From Rhizobium lentis (GTDB lineage Bacteria; Pseudomonadota; Alphaproteobacteria; Rhizobiales; Rhizobiaceae): a DNA stretch of 64,000 nt. Made by a program: the position numbers and the translations under genes. Under the pieces are notes generated by a model that searched no databases, had not been told where the DNA came from, and saw only the letters and a list, made by a program, of their open reading frames with translations. Positions 40,722-60,072 of the stretch are shown here, piece after piece; position 1 is the stretch's first letter, and each line of letters starts with the position of its first letter. The stretch is taken from NCBI RefSeq assembly GCF_017352135.1, contig NZ_CP071454.1:2567001-2631000 (forward strand). The letters run 5' to 3'.

Positions 40722-41588
40722 TCATTCTTCGAACCAAGTCTGGAAAGGCCGTCGCTCAAATTCGTCCAGCGCGCCGCCAGGTGTGGAGTTAAAGACGCGG
40801 ATACCGTTCGCTTTGGCAATATTTGAGATTGCTCTATATTGCCGCCACAGTCGCGCCAGTTGTTGGAATTCATCGTGACGGCCCCTTGTCAAGACGCCGT
40901 CTGCATTTACGGTGAAATCCTTTCCTTTTTGAACTTTGAGATCGAACGCGTACTGGTAGGTCGACGAGAGGAAACGATCATGGTCGACGCCGAGCAGGAT
41001 AATCTCCTTGAAACCAAGATACATGGCTATCATCAACGCCATCACCGGCACCGATTCGACACGAGGGACCGGCTGCGAGATATCGACGATTTCATCTGAC
41101 GTTCTTTCGTCGAAGCTTTCACCGAGCACGAGATAGCGAACCGTCCGCCCAGCAAACAGATTGTTTTTTTGAACGAGCTCAGCTTCTGTGGAACTAAGAA
41201 ACAGTTCCTGTCCGCCCAGGTGCGAATGCATCTCATTAAACCAGCGGATCACATCCTCAGGAGTCATCAATCCGTAGGTGATTTGCGGAACGCAATGATA
41301 ACGAGACTGGAACTTGTCAAAATCGGAGTGCAGATAGCCGTTGGAAACGGTGATTACATTTTCGCCTTGAAGTCGCGACAAATCCAAGCCCTTGACGCTT
41401 GGACCATTGCCTAAAATAAAACAGCGCTCCCCCGCATGCAGCCCGGCAAGCTGTCTATTCTCTGCCAGCGATCTCGCGACATCCGCAGAGAATTTATGGC
41501 GATTATTTAGCCTGCGCTTCAGCTCATGCACACCATAGGGGAGCAGCATGGAGCCAAACGTCAAAATCTTTCTCAAGGCTGCAGCCAC
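40722..41588 (-). CDS. DUF115/GT42-like putative nonulosonyl (sialyl) transferase
   Basis: Protein of 288 residues with the nucleotide-binding start CFILGNGPSVKGLDLSRLQG. It later has PVMALMIAMYLGFKEIILLGVDHD, then SSTYQYAFDL, and a terminal GIRVFNSTPGGALDEF. The same order of motifs is seen in Campylobacter Cst-II sialyltransferase (GNGPSLKEID..., ALGYKEIYLSGIDF..., SSYAFD...) and in motility-accessory DUF115 proteins. In a locus with NeuB-, PseG- and CMP-transferase-like genes it is a reasonable candidate to transfer the nonulosonic acid. Start is GTG after GAGGTGGTGAA, overlapping the deacetylase gene by 16 bp. The activity is inferred. Confidence 0.6.
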   Translation of the reverse strand: MAAALRKILTFGSMLLPYGVHELKRRLNNRHKFSADVARSLAENRQLAGLHAGERCFILGNGPSVKGLDLSRLQGENVITVSNGYLHSDFDKFQSRYHCVPQITYGLMTPEDVIRWFNEMHSHLGGQELFLSSTEAELVQKNNLFAGRTVRYLVLGESFDERTSDEIVDISQPVPRVESVPVMALMIAMYLGFKEIILLGVDHDRFLSSTYQYAFDLKVQKGKDFTVNADGVLTRGRHDEFQQLARLWRQYRAISNIAKANGIRVFNSTPGGALDEFERRPFQTWFEE

Positions 41589-42205
41589 TTCACCACCTCG
41601 AAGACCTCTGCGTATTTGACACCGATGCGCTGGCCGGCGTTCTCGGCTTCATTGCGGAAGAAGCTCACCCATTTACGCCCCGTGCGCTCCATCTCGGATT
41701 CATGGGCAAGGATCGCTCTTTCCTTCTGATCCCAATGGGCGGTAATGTCGACGTAGAAATTCCCCCTGAAATCGACCGTCGAATGATACCAGTTGCTGCG
41801 GTACATCAACAGGCGCGGCACATGGCGGCAGCTGTGCAGCGATGCACGCGACAATGCCAGGTGGTCATGATGGATATCGCCGACCCAGTGGGTATAGACC
41901 ATGTCGATCTTCAGATCCTGCACGAGCTTGAGGATCTCGATATTCAGGGGATCGACGAATTCGATCTGGAGAGTTTTGAACTCGCCGCAAAACATCTTGT
42001 GGACGCCGAGAATTTCCATCGCCGCATCCGCTTCCGCTCTAGCAACCTGACTGCTGCGGACGGACTGGTCATACTGGTTGGAAAAGCCGGATACGGTCGC
42101 GACATAGACGTAGACCGTGTCGCCGTTTGCCGCATGGCGTGCCAATGCACCGCCACAGCCCAGTTCCACGTCGTCGAAATGGGCACCGATCGCGAGAATA
42201 TTCAT
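41573..42205 (-). CDS. PIG-L/LmbE-family deacetylase
   Basis: Zinc-dependent N-deacetylase family protein of 210 residues. The metal motif is AHFDDVELGCGG (His, Asp and Asp) with a later THWVGDIHHDHLALSRA supplying the HxxH ligand. Relatives remove N-acetyl groups from amino sugars. In this locus it may deacetylate a precursor so that another acyl group can be added. ATG overlaps the WbqC gene stop (ATGA). Confidence 0.85.
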   Translation of the reverse strand: MNILAIGAHFDDVELGCGGALARHAANGDTVYVYVATVSGFSNQYDQSVRSSQVARAEADAAMEILGVHKMFCGEFKTLQIEFVDPLNIEILKLVQDLKIDMVYTHWVGDIHHDHLALSRASLHSCRHVPRLLMYRSNWYHSTVDFRGNFYVDITAHWDQKERAILAHESEMERTGRKWVSFFRNEAENAGQRIGVKYAEVFEVVKWLQP

Positions 42206-42903
42206 TTGCAACTCCAGAGCAGGTCACGCGTGCCTGCAATACCACAATTCAGCAGTGTGTCGAGAATGCTGAGATAGGGCATGAACTCCCCGAAAGGCTG
42301 TGGATAGACCGGATGAACGAAATGCTGCCATTCGATTTCGATTCCGGCTGCCTCAAACACGTCCGGCCGCATATACTCGCGCGCGCCGAGGCCCGAGAGA
42401 TAACGTGTTGCCCCCACTTTGCGCAGCAGTTCGACAAGCAATTCGTTCTTGTGCCCCTCAGGGCTTAATGTGCTCGATCGCACCGTCGGCATCCTAATTT
42501 CAAGCATCTCCAGGATGCCTTCCAGGAAATGCATATTGAAATCGGCCAGCAGTTCGAACCGTTTGCCGTAGAGGCCCTCAATAAGGGGAAAGGCCTCACT
42601 CCAACCGGCAGACTTTCGATAGTTTTCGCGAAGCAGGGAAAGGTTCTGATCTATCCATCCGGTGCCGGGCGCCAGTTCCACCGCGTTGATCGGGGTGCCA
42701 AGACTCGGCTTTTTGATCCCGACGGTGAGCCAGCGATCACCTTGCGCCGTCTTTATCTTGTCACGGTGTGTCCAGCTTTTGCTCGTGCCATGAACAAACT
42801 GGACGTGGTCCAGAACGATGTAGAGGTCAGCGTTCAGAAAACGCTGAAAAAAGCCGAGATAGGAGGCAAAGTCCGGCTGATGGATCACCGCTGTCAGGGT
42901 CAT
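42202..42903 (-). CDS. WbqC-family protein
   Basis: Protein of 233 residues of the WbqC-like family: VIHQPDFASYLGFFQRFLNADLYIVLDHVQF, DKIKTAQGDRWLTVGIKK, then YLSGLGAREYM near the C-terminus. The family (named from O-antigen loci) is biochemically poorly defined; several members sit with amino-sugar acyl-modification genes and may act in acyl or amide bond formation. It overlaps its neighbours on both sides by 4 bp (ATGA). Confidence 0.8.
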   Translation of the reverse strand: MTLTAVIHQPDFASYLGFFQRFLNADLYIVLDHVQFVHGTSKSWTHRDKIKTAQGDRWLTVGIKKPSLGTPINAVELAPGTGWIDQNLSLLRENYRKSAGWSEAFPLIEGLYGKRFELLADFNMHFLEGILEMLEIRMPTVRSSTLSPEGHKNELLVELLRKVGATRYLSGLGAREYMRPDVFEAAGIEIEWQHFVHPVYPQPFGEFMPYLSILDTLLNCGIAGTRDLLWSCK

Positions 42904-43865
42904 GCAGCCAGTCCTTCCAGCAGATCGGCAACGCGGCCGACCCCGCCGAGGTCGACCTTGGTCATCGCAGTCTCGCTCATGCTCCTGATGGGGATTGCCT
43001 TTTCCAGGATGCCAAGGTCGAATTCTGAGTGATGTCCGGCAAAGAACGCCGCACCGAGGTTTTCAAGCGCGCACCCGACCGGGATTTCAAAAGGTTCGTT
43101 GGCAATCACCACGCACGGCAAGCCGGCCGCACAGGCTTCGAAGGGCGTAAGACCGCCACCGGTAATCGCCAGATCGTGCCCATACATCTCCGCCGCAAGC
43201 GACGGCACCTGGTTGAGCAGCTTGAATCGATCCGGCTCTGCGGCCGAGACGACCTCTTCAAGCTCGGCCATGTGCCGGAAGCTCGGGCCCGTGACGATCG
43301 TGACTGGGAAGGGTTTGTTGCGCAGCCATTGGGCGACGCGGACCGTTACCCCGTAGGTATCGGCGCCGCCGAGCGTGACGAGTATCGATGTGAGCTCTTC
43401 CCGAACTCGGCGATACCTAGCAATTTCCGGATTGAGTATCATATACTCCACCCCCAGCCGCACATCCCCGCCCTTCAGCTCCTCCGTCTTTTCAAACAAC
43501 AGAGCGCAGACATTGATGTCGGCAAGTTCTGCGCCATCGCCGCGATCATCAAAGGTAACAAGCTTGGCGCCCAAGCGCTTGACGGTCTCGCCGTGGGACC
43601 GCTGCGTATTGAGGCGGTCGTTAATCCAGATCGAGGACGGAGCTGCGTCTGCGAGGAAATCCTTCTCCCATCCCGTCACGGCGGCGAGATCATAAAGCGC
43701 AACGTCGAAGCCGCGCTCCCGGATGATGCTCAACGAATTCGGATGATCGTTCGCCAAAAATCGCACTGAACGACCACGGGTGCGCAGCTCGGCGGCGAGC
43801 GTCAGCGATCGAAACAGATGCCCCATGCCGCGTGCATGCGAACTTTCTATGCAGAAGACGAACAT
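42900..43865 (-). CDS. PseG-like UDP-sugar hydrolase (nonulosonate precursor)
   Basis: GT-B fold protein of 321 residues. The first lobe has VFCIESSHARGMGHLFRSLTLA (the GxGHxxR-type PseG motif) and LVTFDDRGDG. The second lobe has SILVTLGGADTYG and DLAITGGGLTPFEACAAGLPCVVI. PseG hydrolyses the UDP-linked 2,4-diacetamido-trideoxyhexose to the free sugar that the NeuB-type synthase condenses with pyruvate or phosphoenolpyruvate. ATG at 43863-43865 overlaps the cytidylyltransferase gene by 19 bp. The exact sugar is unknown. Confidence 0.8.
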   Translation of the reverse strand: MFVFCIESSHARGMGHLFRSLTLAAELRTRGRSVRFLANDHPNSLSIIRERGFDVALYDLAAVTGWEKDFLADAAPSSIWINDRLNTQRSHGETVKRLGAKLVTFDDRGDGAELADINVCALLFEKTEELKGGDVRLGVEYMILNPEIARYRRVREELTSILVTLGGADTYGVTVRVAQWLRNKPFPVTIVTGPSFRHMAELEEVVSAAEPDRFKLLNQVPSLAAEMYGHDLAITGGGLTPFEACAAGLPCVVIANEPFEIPVGCALENLGAAFFAGHHSEFDLGILEKAIPIRSMSETAMTKVDLGGVGRVADLLEGLAA

Positions 43866-44524
43866 AACTTGATCGCTTCTTCTGTCTCGAGCCAACGTCC
43901 GCCCGCCTGCGCTGCGAGCGCACAAGCACGTCTCCAGTCCTCCTCAGTATCCACCGTCAGGCGCAGATTCGGAGAGACTTTGGCCGGTGGTACATCGAGC
44001 TGACCGATCTTGAACAATTCGGGGCGATCGGTGAAGTATTCATTCACGTGTTCGCGATGGTGCGGCAGCTTCCCCTCGCGGTGGCTGCGCGACAGGGCTT
44101 CGAAGGTAAATATCTCGGCGCCGACACCAATTGGCAACTGGCCAAACGCATGCGTGTAGTCGAATCCCTGCTTTTGGTGCAGATCGATCAGTCTTTCGAG
44201 CTCTTCGATGTCAGTGAAGGGATTATCTGCGGTCAGCCGCACGACGTCCGACATGCCGAGTGATCTTGCACATTCGAAATAACGGTCGAGAACATCGGCT
44301 TCGTCGCCGCGAAAGCAGCTTGCACCGTGCTCCAGGCACCAGGCTTCGATAATATCGTTCTCGCTCGCCGACGATGTCGCAACCACAACCTTGGCCGGAC
44401 GCCTCAACATTTGAAGCCGACCAAGGACATGGCCGAGAAGAGGCTTGCCGGAAATGTCACGAAGCACTTTTCCCGGCAGCCGCGTCGATCCCATCCGCGC
44501 CTGGATGATAATCCCAAGCGTCAC
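43847..44524 (-). CDS. CMP-nonulosonate cytidylyltransferase (SpsF/PseF-like)
   Basis: Nucleotidyltransferase of 225 residues. The N-terminal GIIIQARMGSTRLPGKVLRDISGKPLLGHV is the SpsF/cytidylyltransferase signature with the RxGSxRLPGK nucleotide loop. VVRLTADNPFTDIEELERLIDLH carries the metal-binding Asp. It would activate the acid sugar with CTP. Start choice: GTG at 44522-44524 overlaps the synthase stop (GTGA) and has GGAG nine bases upstream; an ATG at 44539 lacks such support. Confidence 0.8.
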   Translation of the reverse strand: MTLGIIIQARMGSTRLPGKVLRDISGKPLLGHVLGRLQMLRRPAKVVVATSSASENDIIEAWCLEHGASCFRGDEADVLDRYFECARSLGMSDVVRLTADNPFTDIEELERLIDLHQKQGFDYTHAFGQLPIGVGAEIFTFEALSRSHREGKLPHHREHVNEYFTDRPELFKIGQLDVPPAKVSPNLRLTVDTEEDWRRACALAAQAGGRWLETEEAIKLCSSSA

Positions 44525-45537
44525 GCCAGATCGCTCCATTGGAGAACGGCGTCGGCATCGAGGTCGTTGACGACCCGTCGTCCTGCGAGAACTTCGAAAT
44601 GCTTCGGTTCAATTCCTGTTCCGGGCCGCTTGACGGCAATATCGCCGGCGGAGATGACATGACCGGCCTTGAGCGGTCGATTGACGACGACGCTCTTGCG
44701 ATTGTTCAATCTCGTCGTCGCTTCACTCGCGGCCGGTTCCTTGCGACCACTGCCCTTCATGATTTCGAACGCGCGTATCGCGTCGACAAGCCATTTCATT
44801 TCCGCCGGATCGGCCGAAAGCATGTGGTCCGGGCCGTCTGCGGCTTTGTCGTAGGTGAAATGACGCTCGATGACCCGGGCGCCCATCGCGACCGCACAGA
44901 GACTTGCGACCGGTGTCAGCGTGTGGTCGGAATAACCGACGTCGAGATCCGGAAACGCTTCCATCATCGTTTGCATCGCCCGCAGGTTCACATTTTCCGG
45001 ATGCGTCGGATAGCTAGTGATGGCATGCAGTAGAATGAGCTTGTCGTTGCCGGCGTCCTTGATTGCGGCGACGGACTCCCGAACTTCGTCGAGCGTCGAC
45101 ATCCCCGTCGACAGGATGATCGGCTTGCCGGTTTTTGCCAGATAACGGAGAAAGGGAATGTTGACTGCGTCGTCCGAACCCACCTTGTGGGCGCCCACTC
45201 CACACTTCTCCAGCAGATCGACATCCGTTTCATGCGACGGCGACGAGAACCAGTCCAGCCCGTGCTCTTCGGCATAGCGAAAAACCGCTTCGTGAAGCTC
45301 ATGACCGATTTCGTATTTACGAAATAGTTCGAACTGCGAGGTAACGCCGGTGTTCTCCATATCGAACATCGCGTTGCGGCTCGACAGGGTCTCCGCGCGA
45401 TAAGTCTGGAGCTTGACGGCATCCACCCCCGCCGCCTTTGCCTCGTCAATCAGGCGCCTTGCCTGATCAAATGTCGTGAAGTTTCCGCCGATCTCAGCGA
45501 TGATATAGCACCGGTCCGGCCGGTAATTGCGGAACAT
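44521..45537 (-). CDS. NeuB/PseI-family nonulosonic acid synthase with SAF domain
   Basis: Enzyme of 338 residues that would condense a six-carbon amino sugar with phosphoenolpyruvate into a nine-carbon acid. TIM-barrel motifs: CYIIAEIGGNF, GVDAVKLQTYRAETL, KVGSDDAVNIPFLRYLAKTGKPIILSTGMS, DVGYSDHTL and GARVIERHFTYDK. A C-terminal SAF (antifreeze-like) domain starts about residue 280 (RKSVVVNRPLKAGHVISAGD). Start has GGAGAAACAGG upstream. Whether the product is sialic, legionaminic, pseudaminic or another acid cannot be read from the sequence. Confidence 0.88.
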   Translation of the reverse strand: MFRNYRPDRCYIIAEIGGNFTTFDQARRLIDEAKAAGVDAVKLQTYRAETLSSRNAMFDMENTGVTSQFELFRKYEIGHELHEAVFRYAEEHGLDWFSSPSHETDVDLLEKCGVGAHKVGSDDAVNIPFLRYLAKTGKPIILSTGMSTLDEVRESVAAIKDAGNDKLILLHAITSYPTHPENVNLRAMQTMMEAFPDLDVGYSDHTLTPVASLCAVAMGARVIERHFTYDKAADGPDHMLSADPAEMKWLVDAIRAFEIMKGSGRKEPAASEATTRLNNRKSVVVNRPLKAGHVISAGDIAVKRPGTGIEPKHFEVLAGRRVVNDLDADAVLQWSDLA

Positions 45538-45649
45538 CCTGTTTCTCCCTGTAATTCACGACCGGCAAAGCCGCCTCACTCGCGCGGCGATCGCAGGCCC
45601 CTAAATTGCAGGCTTGGTGGCATCTGCGTAACGCGCGGATTTCGGCCGA

Positions 45650-46720
45650 CTACCGTCCGATTTCCTGGTTCCGGTCGACGTAATTCCGCACAATCACCTG
45701 CCGGCCGCAAATCTCAGCCGTCTCGTCATCGGTCTGTCTCGGCAGATAGCATCGGCGGCAGACCTCGCTCTTCAGAAAACCTTGCGGTTCCTTGTGCAGA
45801 GCGCGCACCGCGTTCATTTTTTCCCCGTGCCATATCTGGTGCACGGTTTCCGTGTTCGCGTCGCCGATAACCTCACGGTTCTCCTCATCGTTCGAGCACT
45901 TCATGACCAATCCGTCAGCACCGATCACCAGGCGTTGGTACTGCTGCGGACATGTGAAGTTGTCGAGATAGGCGATATCGGAATCGTTGCCGAGATAGTC
46001 GATCAGCGGATTGAAAGCGACCAGATCCACATGAGGCGCGAAGGTCTCGTAATAGAGATCCGGATTCTCCCGGATTGCCGGCCAGATGCCCTGCACCTTG
46101 ATGACAGGCCGGTGGAGACCGCGTTCCTCCTTGTACTTCTTGATATCCTTGATCTTGTCGAGCAGCGCCTCGAACTTGATCGGCTTGCGGATCCGCTCAT
46201 AGGTCTCACCGGTGCCATCGATCGAAACGGTGATCCAGTCAATGCCGGCATCGACGAGCTGGGCGAAATAGTCTCTGTTGAGCTTGAAGCCGTGCGTGAG
46301 GGTCGAGACCTCTTTGATCCCGTGATCCTTGGCATAACGCACGCAGTCGGCGAAACGCTTGTGCAGCGTGGCTTCGCCCCGCAGCGACAGGCGGATCGCC
46401 GGAACCTTGCCGCCGATCTCATCGATGATGCGGCAATAGAGATCCCAGTCCATCCGGGTCGTATTGACGTTTTTCTTGAACTCGTCGCTGATCGTATAAC
46501 ACATCGGGCAGCGCAGATTGCAGATCGACGCCAGTTCGAGATCGACCAGCAGCGGATAATCCGAAACCTGCTGGTTCAGGGCATATTCCGACCATTTGCG
46601 ACGATACTCCGCGTATTCGGCTTCCCAACCCTCGCCACGGTATTTCTCGAACGCGGCTTCGCGCTCGTCCGTGTCCATCGAGTAGTTGCCTTTGTTGATC
46701 GGAACGTAACGTTCGTTCAA
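45650..46720 (-). CDS. radical SAM/SPASM enzyme of the polysaccharide locus
   Basis: Protein of 356 residues. The radical SAM cluster motif is CNLRCPMCYT (CxxxCxxC, about residue 67). Additional C-terminal cysteines include CSNDEEN and CRRCYLPRQ, arranged as in SPASM/Twitch auxiliary Fe-S domains. These enzymes perform hydrogen-atom abstraction: dehydrogenation, epimerisation or C-C chemistry. Its position between sugar-nucleotide enzymes and the NeuB-like synthase suggests it acts on a sugar precursor. Start is TTG with AAGGAG upstream; an ATG at residue 15 is an alternative. Two bases separate it from the upstream epimerase gene. Confidence 0.85.
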   Translation of the reverse strand: MNERYVPINKGNYSMDTDEREAAFEKYRGEGWEAEYAEYRRKWSEYALNQQVSDYPLLVDLELASICNLRCPMCYTISDEFKKNVNTTRMDWDLYCRIIDEIGGKVPAIRLSLRGEATLHKRFADCVRYAKDHGIKEVSTLTHGFKLNRDYFAQLVDAGIDWITVSIDGTGETYERIRKPIKFEALLDKIKDIKKYKEERGLHRPVIKVQGIWPAIRENPDLYYETFAPHVDLVAFNPLIDYLGNDSDIAYLDNFTCPQQYQRLVIGADGLVMKCSNDEENREVIGDANTETVHQIWHGEKMNAVRALHKEPQGFLKSEVCRRCYLPRQTDDETAEICGRQVIVRNYVDRNQEIGR

Positions 46721-46721
46721 T

Positions 46722-47567
46722 TTACGACTCCTTCATCAGCTCGCGGATTCCGGCCGGCAGATCCCATTCCGGCCGCCATCCGAGAACGGCGCGAGCCCGC
46801 GTAATATCGGCCCGCACGTCAGGTATTTCATTCCGCCGAACAGCGCAAGATGACACTACGGGTAGATCAGTGCCGGCAGCTTCCTGCAAGATGTCGATGA
46901 TTTCCTGCACCGAATACGACGTTCCCGAGCCGATGTTCATGCAATGATAGCCTTCAGAGACGTTCATGGCTTTGGCGAGGGCGCTCAGGACATCGTCAAC
47001 GAAGACGTAATCCCGCCGCGGACTGAGGTCCATGACCTGTATTTCCTGCTTGGTTCTTACCTGGTTCAGAAGCGTCGGTATCAGAAATTCCGGGCGCTGC
47101 CCAACCCCATATATATTGAAAAGGCGCAATACCACCACTGGTACCTGCTCATGTGTGGCAGCAAACGCACAGAGTTGTTCGGCAAGATGTTTGGAGAGTG
47201 CGTAGGGATTGTTGGGTCTGACCGGATCAGTTTCGTGGATCGGCAGCCGCTCCGGCACCCCGTAGACATAGGCGCTGGCGAATATGAGCCTGGCCTTGTG
47301 CCGTTTGCACCAGTTCAATGCATGCTGCGTGCCGAGAACATTGGCGGCCGTGAAGCTCGGGCCTTGCGTCCAGCTGTCGGGAACAAATGTCCTGCCGGCT
47401 AAATGAAACAGCGTGCGCGCCGGGGGAAGTCGCTGCCACATCCCCTCCTCGCTGATGTCGCCGTGGGTCCGGTCCAGCGCAAGCACGTCAACGCCGGCCT
47501 GTTCAAGCCGCTCCACCAAGCGCTTCCCGAGGAAGCCGCCAGCACCGGTGACAATGGCATCAACCAT
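46722..47567 (-). CDS. NAD-dependent nucleotide-sugar epimerase/dehydratase
   Basis: Extended SDR of 281 residues. The dinucleotide motif is AIVTGAGGFLGKRLVERLEQAG. The active-site YALSK (Tyr and Lys, in PNNPYALSKHLAEQL) and RLFNIYGVGQRPEFLIP are as in GalE/RmlB relatives. It probably reduces, epimerises or dehydrates a nucleotide sugar of this locus. Specificity is not readable. It overlaps the nucleotidyltransferase gene by 8 bp. Confidence 0.85.
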   Translation of the reverse strand: MVDAIVTGAGGFLGKRLVERLEQAGVDVLALDRTHGDISEEGMWQRLPPARTLFHLAGRTFVPDSWTQGPSFTAANVLGTQHALNWCKRHKARLIFASAYVYGVPERLPIHETDPVRPNNPYALSKHLAEQLCAFAATHEQVPVVVLRLFNIYGVGQRPEFLIPTLLNQVRTKQEIQVMDLSPRRDYVFVDDVLSALAKAMNVSEGYHCMNIGSGTSYSVQEIIDILQEAAGTDLPVVSSCAVRRNEIPDVRADITRARAVLGWRPEWDLPAGIRELMKES

Positions 47568-48273
47568 TCAAGAACCTGGATTGCATGGTTTCGAACTGCT
47601 CGATCGCCAATGCATAATCGTCGGGGCGGCCGATATCGAGCCAATAGCCGGGAAAATCGCGAACCGTGGCCGGCTTTCCGGCGGCAAGAAGATCAAGCAT
47701 CAACTGGTCGAAGCCGTAGGCGCCGCGTTGCGGTATGTGTTCGACCGCCCGCGAGGACACCATGTAGACGCCCATGCTGACCTTATACTCGGCCGTCGGC
47801 TTTTCCCGAAAGCCAGTCAGACGCCCCGCCTCGTTGGTGTCGAGAACGCCGTAGTCGATGCGATGCTGCCGTGTCTTGGACGAAATTGTAAAGATATTGC
47901 CGTCACGGACATGGCTATCGTGAAAATCGGCATAATTCAGGTCCGTCAGAATGTCGCCGTTCATCACCAGGAAATTCTCCGGCAGATCCTTGATCAACCG
48001 CAGCGGCCCCATTGTCCCGAGCGGTTCATCCTCGAGCGAGTAATCAATGCGCACGCCCCATTTGTCGCCATCCTGGAAAAAGGCCTTGATCAATTCAGCC
48101 TGATGGTTGACGGCGAGTGTTATGTGCTGAAATCCGCCGGAGATCAGCTGGCGAATGATGACCTCGAGAATGGGATAATCGCCGATCGGCATCAAAGGTT
48201 TGGGAAGGACGACGGTATAGGGCCGCAACCGCGTTCCCATTCCTCCCGCCAGAATGACTGCGCGCCTAGACAT
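47560..48273 (-). CDS. sugar-1-phosphate nucleotidyltransferase
   Basis: RmlA/GlmU-type nucleotidyltransferase of 237 residues: AVILAGGMGTRLRPYTVVLPKPLMPIGDYPILE is the GXGTRXnPK nucleotide loop, and FLVMNGDILTDLNYADFHD and GYWLDIGRPDDYALAI complete the active site. It makes an NDP-sugar from a sugar-1-phosphate. In legionaminic acid pathways a GDP-GlcN pyrophosphorylase (PtmE) supplies LegB; adjacency to a LegB-like gene makes that role attractive, but this protein lacks CBS domains. Confidence 0.85.
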   Translation of the reverse strand: MSRRAVILAGGMGTRLRPYTVVLPKPLMPIGDYPILEVIIRQLISGGFQHITLAVNHQAELIKAFFQDGDKWGVRIDYSLEDEPLGTMGPLRLIKDLPENFLVMNGDILTDLNYADFHDSHVRDGNIFTISSKTRQHRIDYGVLDTNEAGRLTGFREKPTAEYKVSMGVYMVSSRAVEHIPQRGAYGFDQLMLDLLAAGKPATVRDFPGYWLDIGRPDDYALAIEQFETMQSRFLNG

Positions 48274-49246
48274 TGAAGATATCCGCCTTGTATCTCGCCA
48301 GATTCTGGGGCTGACGCAGCCACTCGACGGTCGCTCTCAGACCTTCCTCCAAGCTGTAACGGGGCGAAAATCCCGTCAGCGACTTGATCAGGCTATTGTC
48401 GCAGCACAAGCGTTCCACTTCGCTGTTTGCGGGGCGCAACCGCTGCTCGTCACATTCGATCTCCACATTGACGCCGATGATGTCGGCGATCAGCCGAACG
48501 GTATCGCCGATCGAGATCTCGCTGCCGGAGCCGATATTGACCGTCTGGCCGACGGCTTCGTCGCAGGCCGCAAGCGCCAGAAAGCCGTCGCATGTATCCT
48601 GCACGAAATTGAAGTCCCGCGTGGGCGAAAGCGCGCCGAGCTTCAGTGTCGTCCGCCCGCTCAGCAGTTGTGAGATCACTGTCGGAATAACCGCCCTTGC
48701 CGATTGTCTGGGGCCGAACGTGTTGAACGGTCGTGCGATCGTCACCGGCAGGTCAAAGCTCGAATAATAGCTGTAGGCGATTGCATCGGCGCCGATCTTG
48801 GAGGCCGAATAGGGCGACTGCGCCTGCAGCGGATGGCTTTCGCTGATCGGCACAAAACGCGCCGTGCCGTAGACTTCGCTGGTTGACGTCTGGATCACCC
48901 TCCCCACCCCAGCGTCAAGGGCTCCTTGAAGGACGTTCAGCGTGCCGTTCACATTGGTATCGATGTAGCTCGACGGCGCCTGATAGGAATAGGGAATGGC
49001 AATCAGGGCGGCAAGGTGGAAGATCGTGTCGACGCCCGTGGCGACGGAGCGCATCTGAGAGGGGTCGCGGACGTCTCCGAGGATGACTTCGAACTTGCCG
49101 CGATATTCAGACTGATCCAGCCAGCCCCAGCTGGAAAACGAGTTGTACTGGCAGAGGGCGCGAACTTCGACGCCCGACCTGACCAGCGTCTCGACAAGAT
49201 GGGAGCCGATAAATCCATCCGCCCCGGTGACAAGCGCTTTCTTCAT
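48266..49246 (-). CDS. LegB-like nucleotide-sugar 4,6-dehydratase
   Basis: Extended SDR of 326 residues. It starts KKALVTGADGFIGSHLVETLVRSG and includes LCQYNSFSSWGWLD, FHLAALIAIPYSYQAPSSYI and the catalytic SPYSASKIGADAIA. The NSFSSWGWLD and LAALIAIPYSY signatures are those of LegB, the GDP/UDP-GlcNAc 4,6-dehydratase that starts legionaminic acid synthesis. It overlaps its neighbours (wzt by 4 bp, nucleotidyltransferase by 8 bp). The usual aminotransferase partner LegC is not adjacent; the aminotransferase at 53500-54609 could fill that role. Confidence 0.85.
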   Translation of the reverse strand: MKKALVTGADGFIGSHLVETLVRSGVEVRALCQYNSFSSWGWLDQSEYRGKFEVILGDVRDPSQMRSVATGVDTIFHLAALIAIPYSYQAPSSYIDTNVNGTLNVLQGALDAGVGRVIQTSTSEVYGTARFVPISESHPLQAQSPYSASKIGADAIAYSYYSSFDLPVTIARPFNTFGPRQSARAVIPTVISQLLSGRTTLKLGALSPTRDFNFVQDTCDGFLALAACDEAVGQTVNIGSGSEISIGDTVRLIADIIGVNVEIECDEQRLRPANSEVERLCCDNSLIKSLTGFSPRYSLEEGLRATVEWLRQPQNLARYKADIFNV

Positions 49247-50562
49247 TTCAAAACACCCTCAGAATCGCGCTGGAAGAGCTTCTCCACCTCCCAGGGCAGT
49301 TGGATCGCCGAAATCGACGGCTTCCGCTGCTGGCCCAGCATCTGGATAATTCCTACATTGTCCTCCACGTCAAACCGAATACCCTCGGCGACGGAATAGA
49401 TCGAGAACCGGCTCGATATGCCGAGCCGCACGTAGAACGTGCCGGTGTTGAGAAGACATCCGGGAAATTTGACGCGGGTTCGATAATAGCCGGCTGGCCG
49501 GGCGTCGAGGCGCCCGACGTCGAGCTCGGGATCGGAAAGGCTGACGAGGGGGGTATAGCCATCCTCCATCATGATCTGCATTCCGACTGAGAGGCCGGAA
49601 AGAGGCTCCCTCAATTCGTACTCGACCTCGACGGAGAAGCCCTTAGACAGTTCCACCGTCCCCGAAACCTCGTCCTTCTCGTTCAGTACCGCAACACGGC
49701 AAATGACCGCCTTTCCATCGACGTCCTCGGGATTGACCGAGTAAATTGCCGTGCCGCCGAATTCCGGGCGGTCGAGGTAGGCTTTTATCACATCTGCGGT
49801 GTCGCCGATCGCAGCGACTTTGCCGTCGGCCATCAGGATCGATTTCGGGCAGATGCTGCTGATCGCAGTCATATTGTGGCTGACAAAGATAATCGTTCGA
49901 CCAGCCTTCGTGACTTCCTGCATGCGCCCCATGCATTTGTTCTGGAAGTTGACGTCACCAACGGCCAAGACCTCATCAATCAAAAGAATTTCCGGCTCGA
50001 GATGCGCCGCAACCGAGAAAGCCAGGCGCACGTACATTCCGGATGAATATCGCTTCACCGGGGTGTCAATGAACTCGCCGATTTCGGCAAACTCGACGAT
50101 CTCGTCGAACTTTGATCTGACCTCGGCACGACTCATACCAAGAATGGCGCCGTTGAGATAGACATTCTCTCGACCGGAAAGCTCCGGATGAAATCCGGTG
50201 CCAACCTCAAGAAGGCTCGCAATTCTACCCCGTATTCCTATGAAGCCGGAATTGGGCAGGGTGATACGCGACATCACCTTCAACAGCGTGGATTTTCCGG
50301 CACCGTTCCTGCCAATAATCCCGACAATCTCGCCGTGGCCGACCTCGAAGGAGACGTCATCAAGCGCATGAAAGATGTCTCCCCTCAGCCGCGACTCCTT
50401 GCCCTTGGCGGAGGCATAGTCGGATACCGAAATGTTCGGATCCGGAAGATTGCGCCACTTTGCCCACCAGCTCTGAAGGTCGCGATAGAGGGTGCCGTGA
50501 TTGATCACGCCGAGGCGGTACAGCTTGCTGATATGCTCCGCTCGAATAACGATATCACTCAT
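49243..50562 (-). CDS. wzt: O-polysaccharide ABC exporter ATPase with Wzt C-terminal domain
   Basis: ATPase of 439 residues. Walker A is GRNGAGKST, the signature is YSSGMYVRLAFSVAAHL, Walker B is LLIDEVLAVGD. The first 250 residues match polysaccharide exporters. A C-terminal beta-sandwich from about residue 300 (VSGTVELSKGFSVEVEYELREPLSG) is the Wzt-C carbohydrate-binding domain that recognises the capped end of the glycan before export. ATG overlaps the permease stop (TGATG). Its presence implies chain-terminating modification, for which the locus methyltransferases are candidates. Confidence 0.93.
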   Translation of the reverse strand: MSDIVIRAEHISKLYRLGVINHGTLYRDLQSWWAKWRNLPDPNISVSDYASAKGKESRLRGDIFHALDDVSFEVGHGEIVGIIGRNGAGKSTLLKVMSRITLPNSGFIGIRGRIASLLEVGTGFHPELSGRENVYLNGAILGMSRAEVRSKFDEIVEFAEIGEFIDTPVKRYSSGMYVRLAFSVAAHLEPEILLIDEVLAVGDVNFQNKCMGRMQEVTKAGRTIIFVSHNMTAISSICPKSILMADGKVAAIGDTADVIKAYLDRPEFGGTAIYSVNPEDVDGKAVICRVAVLNEKDEVSGTVELSKGFSVEVEYELREPLSGLSVGMQIMMEDGYTPLVSLSDPELDVGRLDARPAGYYRTRVKFPGCLLNTGTFYVRLGISSRFSIYSVAEGIRFDVEDNVGIIQMLGQQRKPSISAIQLPWEVEKLFQRDSEGVLK

Positions 50563-51437
50563 CAAACGGTATCCATTGCCGTTGCCTCGGCTCGCGCGAA
50601 AAGCATCAGGCCACCGATAAAAACAATCAGAGTGACAGCGATATTCGCGAGGCAAACGCTCAGTGGGAGTGACGACGAGTCGAACAGTGCCCAACGGAAT
50701 AGCTGAACCGGCGTCGTCATCGGATTGAGGTGGTAAAACCATTGATATCGTTCGGGAACTTGGCTGAAGGTGTAGACGACGGGTGTGGCATACATCCAAA
50801 GCTGAGCCACGAAGCCGACAGCATAAACCAGATCACGATATCGGACCGTCAGCGCAGAAACCGCGAGTCCTGCGCCCACGCCAAGTGTTGCGACATATGC
50901 CAAAATCAGCGGCGTCGCTAACACAAAACGCAGGCTCATCACCATGCCATCCTGGCTGAGCCAGAGAGCAAAGGAGATTGTAAGCAGAAGCATAAATTGG
51001 ATAACAAATGCTACCAGGCTGCTCATCGCGACCGCGAGCGGGACAACCAGTCGGGGGAAGTACACCTTTCCGAACAAATTTGAGTTCTTTGAAAATGTTT
51101 CCGCATTGTTGGTCAGACAAGCCGAGAAATAATTCCAGATGATGGTTCCGGACATATAAAAGACAAGCGGTGAAATTCCATCGGTGGAGAGATTGGCAAT
51201 CTTTCCGAAGACGACATAGTAGGTTATCGCCGTCAGTGTCGGTTGTATCAGATACCAAACCGGTCCGAGCACAGTTTGCTTGTAGAAGGTCGTGAAATCC
51301 CTTTTGAAGAACATCCAGACAAGTTCACGATATTTCCATGCGGCCGTCAGCCGGCCGCTTACATTGCCGGATGGCTTGATGACGATATCCCAGAATTCGG
51401 TTCCGCTTTCTCGCTTCTTCGTCACGTGACCTGTCAT
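50562..51437 (-). CDS. wzm: O-polysaccharide ABC exporter permease
   Basis: ABC-2 type permease of 291 residues with about six membrane segments. It begins YRELVWMFFKRDFTTFYKQTVLGPVWYLIQP, the typical Wzm/RfbA opening, and ends with LFRWALFDSSSLPLSVCLANIAVTLIVFIGGLMLF. It forms the inner-membrane channel with Wzt for undecaprenyl-linked glycan. ATG lacks a strong ribosome-binding site. An 80-bp gap separates it from the upstream glycosyltransferase. Confidence 0.92.
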   Translation of the reverse strand: MTGHVTKKRESGTEFWDIVIKPSGNVSGRLTAAWKYRELVWMFFKRDFTTFYKQTVLGPVWYLIQPTLTAITYYVVFGKIANLSTDGISPLVFYMSGTIIWNYFSACLTNNAETFSKNSNLFGKVYFPRLVVPLAVAMSSLVAFVIQFMLLLTISFALWLSQDGMVMSLRFVLATPLILAYVATLGVGAGLAVSALTVRYRDLVYAVGFVAQLWMYATPVVYTFSQVPERYQWFYHLNPMTTPVQLFRWALFDSSSLPLSVCLANIAVTLIVFIGGLMLFARAEATAMDTV

Positions 51438-52732: not shown

Positions 52733-53503
52733 TCAGATCGCATTCTTGCGGGCGACGACACAGACGCCCCAGGTGTCAGTCCCCGGGGACGCGCCGGACA
52801 TCCATTCCTCGGCAACGACACGACTCATCCCCGCATTTGCAAGCAGGCGATCGATCTCATTGAGGAAGAGGTAACGCATGCGGTGGGTTTCGCGAACCAT
52901 CTCGGTCTTGGCACTCAGCTTCTCCGTCGCGAAAATCGTGTAATTGACATCGACGACGCTCTCGGTGTCGTGCAGCACCGACTCCGCGACACGGACGATT
53001 GAAACTTCATCATTTTCCAGGCGTTTGGCCCGGGTGCTAGGGCGTTGCCACAGCACTGCAGGCCCGTACCAGAAGTCGAAGATGAAAATCCCACCATCTT
53101 CGAGGTGGTGGGAAACAGTCTCGATCATTGCTTCCAGATCGGCGTCCGAGATCTGATAGCTCAGAACGTGAAAGAGCGAAATCACCGCCTGAAATCGTCG
53201 ATCCGTCCGGAAGGTACGTGCGTCGCCCAGCGAGAAATCAAGTTTGCCGTTCGCCTGTGCCGCCTTCGGCATGGCTGCGGCAAGCATGGTTTCCGAAAGC
53301 TCAACCCCCAGCACCTCGTATCCGGCTTTGGCGATCATGCCGGCATGGATGCCGGTGCCGGATCCCAGCTCCAAAATTTGGGTTACGGGTCTGGTGGCGT
53401 GGCGCTCCAGCAGAGCTTTCACATAGGATGTTTCGCCCTCATAGTCCTTGTCCTTGTAGAGAAGGTCGTAATACTGGGAATATAATCCGAAACTGGTCGT
53501 CAA
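52733..53503 (-). CDS. class I SAM-dependent methyltransferase
   Basis: Methyltransferase of 256 residues: YYDLLYKDKDYEGETSYVKALL, motif I ILELGSGTGIHAGMIAKAGYEVLGVELS, then FQAVISLFHVLSYQISDADLEAM and GGIFIFDFWYGPAVLWQRP. This type occurs in sugar-modification clusters and may N- or O-methylate a nucleotide sugar or glycan. The start is a TTG overlapping the aminotransferase stop (TTGA), supported by GGAGG seven bases upstream. Confidence 0.87.
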   Translation of the reverse strand: MTTSFGLYSQYYDLLYKDKDYEGETSYVKALLERHATRPVTQILELGSGTGIHAGMIAKAGYEVLGVELSETMLAAAMPKAAQANGKLDFSLGDARTFRTDRRFQAVISLFHVLSYQISDADLEAMIETVSHHLEDGGIFIFDFWYGPAVLWQRPSTRAKRLENDEVSIVRVAESVLHDTESVVDVNYTIFATEKLSAKTEMVRETHRMRYLFLNEIDRLLANAGMSRVVAEEWMSGASPGTDTWGVCVVARKNAI

Positions 53504-54609
53504 CGAATGACCTCCGCGACGATACCCGCGACTTCGCGAATTTGCTCTTCCCTCAGCGCCATCCCGCTTGGAATATAGAAGCCGCGGCGCGCAAGCCTTG
53601 CGGCGATGGGAAGATCGGCGTCCTTGAAGAAGCCCATCTTCTGCAGAACCGGCTGCTCGTGCATCGGCCAGAAAAAAGGGCGGCAGCCTACGCCCTTCGC
53701 GGCCAGTCGCTTCATCGCTTCAGCTGCGTCGAAATCGATCTCGTCCTTCAGCACGATGCCGTAAACCCAATAGATATTTCGGGCGTAGGATGTCTCGGCC
53801 AACGGCAATTGAATACCCGGAAGATCCTGAAGCAGTTCGGTATAGAGGCTGCCCATCGCCCGCTTACGCTCGACGAATTCCGGCAGGCGCTCAAGCTGCG
53901 CGCAACCTAAAGCCGCCTGCATATTCGTCATGCGCATATTCCAGCCCAGCTCTTCATGGACAAAGCGGCGGGCAGGGAGGAAGCAAAGATTTCGCAGGCT
54001 CCGAGATCTGTCGGCAATCGCATCGGAATCGGTGACGATCATGCCACCTTCGCCTGTGGTAATATGCTTGTTGGGATAGAAGCTGAAAATGCTGACATCG
54101 CCGAAACTGCCGCAAGGCTGGCCGTTATAAGTCTGGCCATGCATTTCCGCGGCATCTTCAATGATCTTGAGGTTGTGGCGGCGGGCGATCTCGTTGATAG
54201 GTGCCATATCGCATGGCAAACCATAGATATGCACCACCATGATGGCGCGCGTCTTTGGAGTAATTGCTGCTTCAATTTTCGTCGGATCGATATTCCAGGT
54301 GAGGGGATCCGAGTCCACCGCAACCGGCACACAGCCCGCTCTTACGATGGCTGCGGCGCAGGAAATGATCGTGAAGGATGGCAAGATGACCTCGGAGCCT
54401 TCCTCCAGACCAAGCGCCATCATACCGGCATCGAGAGCCATTGAACCATTGGCGACAGCGATTGCGTGCCTGCGGCTGACGGATGCAGCAAATTCACGCT
54501 CAAACCGCGTGATGAAGGGACCTTCGGAGGAAATCCAGCCGGTCTCGATGCATTCCAGCAGATACTTGCTCTCGTTGCCATTCAGCAGCGGTTCATTGAC
54601 CGGAATCAT
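53500..54609 (-). CDS. PLP-dependent sugar aminotransferase, perosamine synthase-like
   Basis: DegT/DnrJ/EryC1 aminotransferase of 369 residues. The start IPVNEPLLNGNESKYLLECIETGWISSEGPFITRFE closely resembles RfbE/PerA, GDP-perosamine synthase. The PLP lysine lies in FSFYPNKHITTGEGGMIV and the Asp/Glu contacts in IIEDAAEMHG. The likely reaction is transamination of GDP-4-keto-6-deoxymannose (product of the gmd gene in this window) to GDP-perosamine. A LegC-type reaction on a LegB product is the alternative. Overlaps both neighbours. Confidence 0.85.
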   Translation of the reverse strand: MIPVNEPLLNGNESKYLLECIETGWISSEGPFITRFEREFAASVSRRHAIAVANGSMALDAGMMALGLEEGSEVILPSFTIISCAAAIVRAGCVPVAVDSDPLTWNIDPTKIEAAITPKTRAIMVVHIYGLPCDMAPINEIARRHNLKIIEDAAEMHGQTYNGQPCGSFGDVSIFSFYPNKHITTGEGGMIVTDSDAIADRSRSLRNLCFLPARRFVHEELGWNMRMTNMQAALGCAQLERLPEFVERKRAMGSLYTELLQDLPGIQLPLAETSYARNIYWVYGIVLKDEIDFDAAEAMKRLAAKGVGCRPFFWPMHEQPVLQKMGFFKDADLPIAARLARRGFYIPSGMALREEQIREVAGIVAEVIR

Positions 54610-55040
54610 ACGGTACCCTTTATCTTCAGTTCCCGCGCCGACGGTACAAATCGCGTTTTATCGGACTCCCCGGCGTAGGGGCCTTGTTTGACTTCGATGA
54701 TTTCGGCTTCTTCGATAATTTCGAAACCGTGCCCGCCGAAGGCAAGCAATATGACGTCGCCCGCGCGCAGGATCGCGCTTTCGTAATATTCCTGCGCGTC
54801 GGTATAGAAGTCCACACGAACAACGCCCGACTTTATCAGCAGGACTTCCTTCGTGTAGAGAACTTCGCGCGCAACGGCGTTATGGACGTGCGGCTGGATG
54901 ACATAGCCGGTCGGTCGCTTCATATAGGCGAGCTGCTGCGAAAACTCGTCCGGCGTGAAAAACTGGATGCCGTCGAACGTGTAGTTCGAGCGCAATATCA
55001 TGGCCTGCAATTCGCCGCCATGCACGATGTTTTCTATCAT
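54606..55040 (-). CDS. cupin-fold protein of the polysaccharide locus
   Basis: Small beta-barrel protein of 144 residues with cupin-like elements: YVIQPHVHNAVAREVLYTKEVLLIKSGVVRVDF and AILRAGDVILLAFGGHGFEII. The His-x-His and later His suit a metal or sugar site, as in sugar ketoisomerases and WxcM-type proteins, though specificity is unknown. The ATG at 55038-55040 follows GGGAAAGAG; a TTG 15 bases upstream is less likely. It overlaps the aminotransferase gene by 4 bp. Confidence 0.7.
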   Translation of the reverse strand: MIENIVHGGELQAMILRSNYTFDGIQFFTPDEFSQQLAYMKRPTGYVIQPHVHNAVAREVLYTKEVLLIKSGVVRVDFYTDAQEYYESAILRAGDVILLAFGGHGFEIIEEAEIIEVKQGPYAGESDKTRFVPSARELKIKGTV

Positions 55041-55068
55041 GTTTCTCTTTCCCAAGTAGAGCGATGCG

Positions 55069-58059: not shown

Positions 58060-59121
58060 ATGACAAAAACCGCGCTTATTACTGGGGTGACTGGTCAGGA
58101 TGGTGCCTATTTGGCCGAATTGCTTTTGAGCAAAGGTTATACGGTGCACGGTATCAAGCGGCGGTCCTCGTCTTTTAATACCGGCCGCATCGAACATATC
58201 TATCAGGATCCGCATGAGGCCCATCCACGCTTCGTCCTCCACTATGGCGATATGATCGACTCGACCAATCTCCTGCGGATCGTGCAGCAGACACAGCCTG
58301 ACGAAATTTACAACCTGGCCGCACAAAGCCATGTCGGCGTTAGTTTCGAAACGCCGGAATATACCGCCGATGCCGATGGTATCGGGACGTTGAGGTTGCT
58401 TGAGGCGATCCGCATCCTGGGTCTTGAGAAAAAAAGCCGGTTCTACCAGGCGTCGACATCGGAACTCTACGGTCTTGTGCAGCAAGTGCCGCAGAACGAG
58501 AAGACGCCATTCTATCCGCGCTCTCCCTATGCCGCAGCCAAGCTCTATGCCTACTGGATCGTCGTGAATTATCGCGAGGCCTACGGCATGCACGCGTCCA
58601 ACGGCATTCTGTTCAACCATGAAAGTCCGCTTCGCGGCGAGACCTTCGTCACGCGCAAGATCACGATGGCGGTGGCGGCCATCAGCCTCGGCCTTCAGGA
58701 CAAGCTTTACCTCGGGAACCTTGACGCCCAGCGTGACTGGGGCCATGCGCGCGAATACGTCGAAGGCATGTGGCGCATGCTGCAGCAGGACAAGCCGGAT
58801 GACTACGTATTGGCGACGGGTGAGACGACGCGTGTCCGCCAGTTTGTCGAGTGGGCTTTTGCCGACGTCGGCATCACCCTGGAGTGGAAGGGGTCCGGCG
58901 TCGACGAAAAGGGTTATGACTCCGCCTCCGGTGCGTGCCTTGTGGAAATCGATCCTCGATATTTCCGCCCGACGGAAGTCGATCTTCTGCTTGGCGACCC
59001 CTCCAAGGCACGCCAGAATCTCGGCTGGCACCACAAGACGCCGGTTCGCGAACTCGCCGCGGAGATGGTGCGCGAGGATATCAAGCACTGGAAGGCTCAA
59101 GGTAGCCGGAAAGAGGTCTGA
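58060..59121 (+). CDS. gmd: GDP-mannose 4,6-dehydratase
   Basis: Extended SDR of 353 residues converting GDP-D-mannose to GDP-4-keto-6-deoxy-D-mannose, the branch point for fucose, perosamine and rhamnose-type sugars. The N-terminal [43 protein letters not shown], the catalytic [11 protein letters not shown] and [19 protein letters not shown] are diagnostic. ATG follows a short AT-rich leader. fcl follows with no intervening base. Its product could feed both the adjacent fcl enzyme and the perosamine-synthase-like aminotransferase at 53500-54609. Confidence 0.96.
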
Positions 59122-60072
59122 GTGTACGACTTATCCAACAAGAAGATCTGGGTTGCCGGTCATCGCGGAATGGTCGGCAGTGCTCTTGTGCGCAGGCTTC
59201 AATCCGAAGCCTGCAACGTCGTCACGGCCACGCGCGCCGAGGTCGACTTGACGCGCCAGGACGAGGTCGAGAAATTTGTTGAAGCAACCCGGCCTGACGC
59301 GATCATTCTCGCCGCTGCCAAGGTTGGCGGTATCCTCGCGAATGACAGCTATCCCGCCGAATTCATCTACGACAATCTGATTATTGAAGCCAACCTCTTT
59401 GAGGCTGCCCATCGGGCGGGCGTGGACCGGTTTCTCTTCCTGGGGTCAAGCTGCATTTATCCCAAGCTCGCGCCACAGCCGATTCCCGAAGACGCTCTGT
59501 TGACCGGTCCGCTTGAGCCGACCAACGAATGGTACGCGATGGCCAAGATCGCCGGTATCAAGCTCGCGGAAGCCTATCGCAAGCAATATGGCCGGGATTA
59601 CATTTCGGCCATGCCGACCAATTTATACGGGCCAGGCGATAATTTCGACCTGAATACCAGTCATGTTCTGCCAGCGCTGATCCGCAAGGCTCATGCTGCG
59701 AAACTTCGCAAAGACCCGCATATGGTGGTCTGGGGCACAGGCACCCCGCGCCGCGAATTTCTTCACGTCGACGACTGCGCCGATGCGTTGGTGTTTCTCC
59801 TCAAATCATATTCGGGCGCGCAGCATGTCAATGTCGGCTCGGGCACGGATCTCGAAATTATCGAATTGACGCGTCTGGTATGCCGCGTTGTCGGTTATGA
59901 GGGGGAGATCATCCATGATCTTTCCAAGCCTGATGGCACGCCGCGAAAGCTGATGAGCAATCAGAAGCTGCAGGACATGGGCTGGAAACCGCGCATCTCG
60001 CTCGAGGACGGCATCCGAGCCACTTACGCCTGGTTCCTGGAATTCGAAAATAAATCGGATTCAGCGGTCTGA
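59122..60072 (+). CDS. fcl: GDP-L-fucose synthase
   Basis: SDR epimerase/reductase of 316 residues (also called WcaG), turning GDP-4-keto-6-deoxymannose into GDP-L-fucose. Signature segments are KKIWVAGHRGMVGSALVRRL, AAKVGGILANDSYPAEFIYDNL, FLGSSCIYPKLAPQPIPEDALL, the catalytic NEWYAMAKIAGIKLAEAYR and NLYGPGDNFD. The start is GTG, directly after the gmd TGA. Fucose is a known constituent of some Rhizobium O-antigens. Confidence 0.95.
   Translation: MYDLSNKKIWVAGHRGMVGSALVRRLQSEACNVVTATRAEVDLTRQDEVEKFVEATRPDAIILAAAKVGGILANDSYPAEFIYDNLIIEANLFEAAHRAGVDRFLFLGSSCIYPKLAPQPIPEDALLTGPLEPTNEWYAMAKIAGIKLAEAYRKQYGRDYISAMPTNLYGPGDNFDLNTSHVLPALIRKAHAAKLRKDPHMVVWGTGTPRREFLHVDDCADALVFLLKSYSGAQHVNVGSGTDLEIIELTRLVCRVVGYEGEIIHDLSKPDGTPRKLMSNQKLQDMGWKPRISLEDGIRATYAWFLEFENKSDSAV

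Follow-up and report, generated by a model that had tools for sequence, protein, structure and literature searches.

A 64,000-nt stretch of the Rhizobium lentis genome (contig NZ_CP071454.1, positions 2,567,001 to 2,631,000; hereafter the window, whose own coordinates are used throughout) carries nine minus-strand genes, from 49246 to 41573, that look like a previously undescribed route to a predicted sialic-acid-like sugar using a radical enzyme. That the set encodes a nonulosonic-type pathway with a radical S-adenosylmethionine enzyme (rSAM) as a regular member is, in our view, highly probable; gene content, gene order, fusions, the synthase clade, model folds and motifs are what the analysis shows directly. 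The full statement, namely a dedicated, laterally passed pathway to an unusual cytidine monophosphate (CMP)-activated nonulosonic acid for a surface polysaccharide, made by the route proposed below, stands evenly balanced, since it combines this pathway type with a detailed chemistry that we hold only tentatively.

The nine-gene set and its conservation

All nine genes named in the original prediction were confirmed on the minus strand:

48266..49246, minus: LegB-like nucleoside diphosphate (NDP)-hexosamine 4,6-dehydratase (TIGR04180, 516.8 bits, cut-off 475)
47560..48273, minus: sugar-1-phosphate nucleotidyltransferase (PF00483 NTP_transferase, 136.8 bits)
46722..47567, minus: short-chain dehydrogenase/reductase (SDR, 'epim'), probable ketoreductase or epimerase (PF01370 Epimerase, 154.2 bits)
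45650..46720, minus: Twitch rSAM with BtrN-like fold (Radical_SAM, 54.9 bits; SPASM, 40.2 bits)
44521..45537, minus: NeuB-family synthase of a separate clade, with an EIGGNF motif (PF03102, 278.4 bits)
43847..44539, minus: SpsF/KdsB-like cytidylyltransferase (PF02348 CTP_transf_3, 113.1 bits; PDB 6oew, 109.7 bits)
42900..43865, minus: PseG-like nucleotide-sugar hydrolase, start revised from 43925 (TIGR03590, 108 bits, cut-off 153.55)
42202..42903, minus: WbqC protein, putative BshC-like and class I aminoacyl-tRNA synthetase (aaRS)-like model (PF08889, 212 bits)
41573..42211, minus: LmbE/PIG-L de-N-acetylase (PF02585, 69.5 bits; TIGR04001 BshB1, 81.7 bits, cut-off 182.5)

The genes are tightly packed: six of the eight boundaries overlap by 4–19 bp, and the other two are a 1-bp gap between the SDR and rSAM genes and 112 bp between the rSAM gene and neuB. 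The translation makes ATG 43865 the likeliest start of pseG, in place of TTG 43925.

Related loci were collected by a scan of one genome per species, based on the rSAM alignment and two exact peptides (MKCSNDE and VPINKGNY); the resulting 36 loci (numbered L008, L015 and so on) are thus a biased sample, many of whose non-Rhizobium entries are metagenome-assembled genomes (MAGs), and gene presence was scored with thresholds of our own choice. All nine genes are present in 29 of the 36 loci, which makes their association more than chance, and 25 loci keep the window order; four (L030, L031, L032, and L037) have the nine in other orders. Eight genes were found in L025, L028, and L029, and six in L015, which ends at a contig edge. 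Of the window-order loci, 11 are titled Rhizobium and two 'Rhizobiales bacterium', and among the remaining 12 are Herbaspirillum, Pseudothauera, Propionivibrio, Nitrospira, Nitrospina, and a Chlorobiaceae MAG. The set is therefore not a rhizobial peculiarity and occurs also in unrelated bacteria. The extra genes flagged at the outset, those for rSAM and LmbE, are regular members of it, with the order kept in distant bacteria. In two eight-gene loci (L028:14899-17920 and L029:15211-18258) the run is followed by a second cytidylyltransferase relative, a DegT relative, and a gene judged by eye to be oxidoreductase-like; these may form another sugar module.

Three of the 36 loci lack the nine-gene set and contain other NeuB clusters. 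In L033 and L034, NeuB and rSAM are fused in a single protein of 706 residues, which in L033 stands beside a PseF-PseG fusion; in L036, PseB, PseC, and PseI all exceed their cut-offs and are accompanied by two formyltransferases, LmbE, PseG, and rSAM. Two further loci resemble L033 in having NeuB, a DUF4910 protein, and rSAM (L072 and L086). Among 398 sampled genomes of the window's phylum, rSAM (E<=1e-40) was found in 4 and NeuB in 152; all 4 also have NeuB, and one of the 4 rSAM matches (G113) is distant and has an internal stop. Samples around three other loci gave rSAM matches at E<=1e-50 in 2/299, 6/198, and 7/148 genomes, several of them distant (near 200 bits).

The radical SAM enzyme and its fusions

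The rSAM belongs to the radical SAM superfamily by its CxxxCxxC motif with invariant C67, C71, and C74 and by a score of 54.9 bits against a cut-off of 29.5. Its iron-sulfur part had been labelled SPASM, with which Pfam agrees, but the spacing of its four cysteines (C257, C275, C321, and C324) is of the Twitch type, as in BtrN. The closest fold among the matches listed is also that of BtrN, an amino-cyclitol dehydrogenase (~21% identity over the aligned part), followed by DesII; the predicted fold and the four cysteines together place the enzyme among BtrN-like Twitch rSAMs. In a 29-row alignment all seven invariant cysteines are cluster ligands, and no additional cysteine is conserved that could serve as the hydrogen donor of a NeoN/HygY-type Twitch epimerase (each other cysteine in <90% of rows).

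Gene fusions tie the enzyme to the pathway. A search with the L033 fusion as query, in which the best 8000 candidates by shared words were scored, gave at least 84 proteins at E<=1e-100, which were mapped with the window's proteins. They include at least 16 NeuB-rSAM fusions (2 cut at the N-terminus), at least 23 SDR-rSAM fusions (2 cut), in all 23 of which the run's SDR outscores LegB, and at least one PseG-rSAM fusion. That the rSAM is joined to three different pathway enzymes is our best evidence for its membership in the pathway. Compared with L033, L086, and L036, the window shows 50–61% identity in the rSAM but 37–42% in NeuB, as if one rSAM family served several kinds of synthase.

Other arrangements were also observed. 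Six proteins (P0194, P0196, P0200, P0201, P0202, and P0203) are NeuB-cytidylyltransferase fusions. In L092, a 17-kb stretch from the sample around L033, a distant rSAM relative (219.8 bits) stands beside LegB, a nucleotidyltransferase, and relatives of LmbE and NeuB; NeuC-like and flagellin-like genes were read there by eye, and no DegT match was among the matches listed for this stretch. In L089:3000-17000, LegB, lmbE, wbqC, and an aminotransferase are clustered with several NeuB relatives and two distant rSAM relatives. In L090:7809-9559 and L091:8238-9992, distant rSAM relatives adjoin a protein weakly matching the PseF-PseG fusion, with no NeuB match among the matches listed. For Campylobacter fetus, a table in PMC6321876 includes two radical SAM genes that are phase-variable and, from their locus numbers, close to an SDR gene.

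A separate clade of NeuB-family synthases

The synthase, the only PF03102 match of a profile search of the whole genome, is a NeuB-family member (PF03102 over its cut-off of 22.1; SAF, 44.9 bits, cut-off 21) that remains below the equivalog cut-offs of TIGR03569 (335.7 of 399.65) and TIGR03586 PseI (279.2 of 340.25). A maximum-likelihood tree with 70 rows places the synthases of the set together in a 34-member clade (100/100, stem 0.78), separate from 31 controls, 30 of them the top-scoring PF03102 loci from one phylum, and from the three references with solved structures in the PDB (SpsE, PseI, and NeuB; LegI is not among them). FastTree agrees, with a support of 1.0, and places the L033 kind as sister to the clade (0.93); the L036 synthase groups with PseI. 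The placement of the synthase proposed as a check on the original prediction thus left it with none of the three references. Asn-Phe occurs in 34/34 clade synthases versus Asn-His in 31/31 controls and 3/3 references, and the same position is Asn-Tyr in L033 and L034 and Asn-His in L036, L086, and L092. Within the tree, the rows of L018, L019, L020, L025, and L026, from records of Betaproteobacteria, Nitrospirota, and Chlorobiota, lie close together (100/99), suggesting that genes have passed between phyla or that MAGs were mis-binned.

Proposed route and alternatives

In the LegB-like protein, T, S, E, Y, and K are conserved in 34/34; its score against the PseB profile is 62.1, below the cut-off of 407.75. 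In the SDR, S, Y, and K are conserved in 33/33, with Tyr (32) or Cys (1) in place of the dehydratase Glu; its best solved relatives are MoeE5 and GDP-6-deoxy-D-mannose reductase. LegC and NeuC were sought in 12 genomes, 11 with all nine genes plus that of L036, two of them MAGs. LegC exceeds its cut-off of 420 in none of the 12, and the NeuC/LegG-type hydrolysing 2-epimerase (TIGR03568) exceeds its own in one, the window genome having no match at E<=1e-20; with LegC over its cut-off thus lacking in 12/12 and NeuC in 11/12, a 4-hydroxy sugar is a simpler reading than a 4-amino sugar. Of the canonical CMP-legionaminic components only LegB is over its cut-off where LegC and NeuC/LegG are not, and the PseB, PseI, and PseG profiles of the pseudaminic pathway all stay below theirs. 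The claim that the set matches no standard pathway is borne out.

LegC had been described as missing from the run. The run does lack it, but a LegC-like aminotransferase is encoded ~4 kb upstream, beyond the conserved set:

53500..54609, minus: LegC-like aminotransferase (LegC profile, 330.2 bits, cut-off 420)

It adjoins a cupin-like gene (53500-55055, minus; WbuC, 25.5 bits, cut-off 42), and relatives of both occur in L022 and L008.

The substrates, reactions, reaction order, and product are what we infer from these data. The nucleotidyltransferase would make NDP-N-acetylhexosamine (NDP-HexNAc), and LegB would convert it to a 4-keto-6-deoxy sugar. No amination by LegC would occur; the SDR would reduce the ketone, so that C7 of the final acid would bear oxygen, not nitrogen. 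The Twitch rSAM, acting together with the SDR and near NeuB, would dehydrogenate one carbinol, and reduction of the resulting ketone from the opposite face would invert that centre. The PseG-like hydrolase would release the free sugar, NeuB would condense it with phosphoenolpyruvate, and the SpsF-like enzyme would form the CMP sugar. LmbE would remove the N-acetyl group, and WbqC, as a putative BshC/class I aaRS-like ligase, would attach an amino acid to the amine so exposed, in parallel with BshB and BshC of bacillithiol synthesis. The last two steps are suggested by the WbqC model, which appears to resemble BshC and class I tRNA synthetases, by structure alone, and by the best NCBIfam profile of LmbE, BshB1 (81.7 of 182.5, below cut-off): 'deacetylate, then ligate an amino acid'. 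Sequence homology of WbqC to BshC (PF10079) was not found (hhalign probability 1%), and the only profile matched was PF08889. The broader proposal of a pathway class built on radical chemistry, in which a BtrN-like enzyme oxidises the amino sugar entering or leaving NeuB while LmbE and WbqC swap N-acetyl for an amino acid, is somewhat unlikely as it stands. If true, it would make WbqC (PF08889) an aminoacyl-amino-sugar ligase and give a function to a family of O-antigen clusters.

The main caveat to the 4-hydroxy reading is the aminotransferases below the LegC cut-off: 328–330.2 bits in the window genome, with a gene that is kept in L008, and 416 bits in the genome of L032, just under 420. L087 (a 5.8-kb contig) departs from the set in having legB, the nucleotidyltransferase, rSAM, the cytidylyltransferase, pseG, and a partial wbqC with no neuB or SDR at the usual positions. 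The aminotransferases, together with a LegB over its cut-off, would suit a near-ordinary legionaminic pathway whose LegC and acyltransferase are encoded outside the run (here at 53500-54609), with rSAM, WbqC, and LmbE decorating the finished sugar; the CBS domains on the L030 counterpart of the nucleotidyltransferase, which we take to be like those of PtmE, were counted for it too. We nevertheless regard this account as unlikely: the best LegC match in the genome of L016 reaches 178 bits, no DegT relative occurs in the stretches covered of L016, L018, L019, L020, L024, L026, L027, and L035, the synthase clade and motif are separate, and the rSAM is fused to core enzymes.

Alternatively, the rSAM and SDR might be a deoxygenating pair modelled on AprD4/AprD3, with radical loss of a hydroxyl and then reduction giving a more deoxygenated acid. 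The two genes adjoin in most loci and form one protein in at least 23 fusions, and the next fold match listed, DesII, takes an amino group off an NDP-amino sugar; the closest, however, is the dehydrogenase BtrN, which shares the four Twitch cysteines, and the rSAM also occurs in clusters without this SDR, so that we give this reading a small chance. Very unlikely is a product other than a nine-carbon nonulosonic acid, such as an activated alpha-keto acid made from a different aldose. The Asn-Phe motif in place of Asn-His and the matches of the cytidylyltransferase to KdsB profiles and structures would fit it, but LegB over its cut-off implies a hexosamine, and the rSAM family is also represented in the pseudaminic cluster, where PseB, PseC, and PseI all exceed their cut-offs.

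Genomic context

The run lies directly downstream of an exporter pair on the same strand and is extended at its other end by a further gene:

50562..51437, minus: wzm, ABC-2 exporter permease (PF01061)
49243..50562, minus: wzt, ABC exporter ATPase with a Wzt_C domain, start read by eye (PF00005 and PF14524)
40722..41588, minus: Maf/MptE-like gene, possible transferase, weak match (PF01973, 24.5 bits, cut-off 34.6)

The MptE-like gene overlaps the end of lmbE, and a relative scoring at least 100 occurs in 25 of the 36 loci. Glycosyltransferase genes are also nearby, and from these and the adjacent wzm/wzt the predicted product would likely be part of the O-polysaccharide. A supply of GDP-fucose to this polysaccharide is suggested by Gmd-like and GDP-fucose-synthase-like genes at 58060-60072 (plus), which were identified by eye in the translations.

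Sialic-acid-like sugars influence how bacteria interact with hosts, plants, and phages, and a handful of enzymes serve to recognise the pathways that make them. A conserved set that regularly includes rSAM, WbqC, and LmbE would add to these enzymes, offer a testable function for WbqC, and provide a genome signature for unrecognised acid sugars, i.e., an rSAM gene adjoining or fused to neuB and EIGGNF in the synthase.

Comparison with known systems

Searches of open-licence papers (subscription papers and bioRxiv lay outside them) found none joining radical SAM enzymes with nonulosonic acids and NeuB, with legionaminic acid, or with O-antigen and N-acetylneuraminate synthase, and none joining WbqC with legionaminic acid; for radical SAM and pseudaminic acid, nothing in the passages retrieved connected the enzymes with such a pathway. 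The main texts of PMC3438082, PMC7371886, and PMC13317340 do not contain the word 'radical'.

The PseG-like character of the hydrolase, claimed at the outset as a departure from LegG/NeuC, holds, but it is less unusual than was thought. According to passages of PMC7439481, the Bacillus subtilis sps legionaminic pathway uses the PseG-like SpsG with SpsF and SpsE, the diamino sugar being made by the dehydratase SpsM, SpsC, and SpsD; the pairing of SpsG, SpsE, and SpsF is therefore not new. The sps system shares with our set a PseG-like hydrolase, an SpsF-type cytidylyltransferase, and a NeuB-family synthase, but those passages name no rSAM, WbqC, or LmbE, and SpsE falls outside the clade of the set.

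BtrN, of butirosin biosynthesis, shares ~21% identity with the rSAM over the aligned part and acts in a different pathway, the substrate and reaction of the rSAM being predictions. In bacillithiol synthesis, BshB deacetylates and BshC then places an amino acid on the freed amine; in the set, an LmbE-family deacetylase stands next to a protein whose model may be BshC-like, although the pathway differs, WbqC has no sequence link to BshC, and LmbE is below the BshB1 cut-off. The CMP-legionaminic pathway of Campylobacter jejuni shares with the set LegB, a nucleotidyltransferase, a NeuB-family synthase, and a cytidylyltransferase. In contrast to it, LegC is over its cut-off in 0/12 of the genomes searched and NeuC in 1/12, and the set adds the SDR, rSAM, WbqC, and LmbE, has a PseG-like hydrolase, and draws its synthase from a separate clade.

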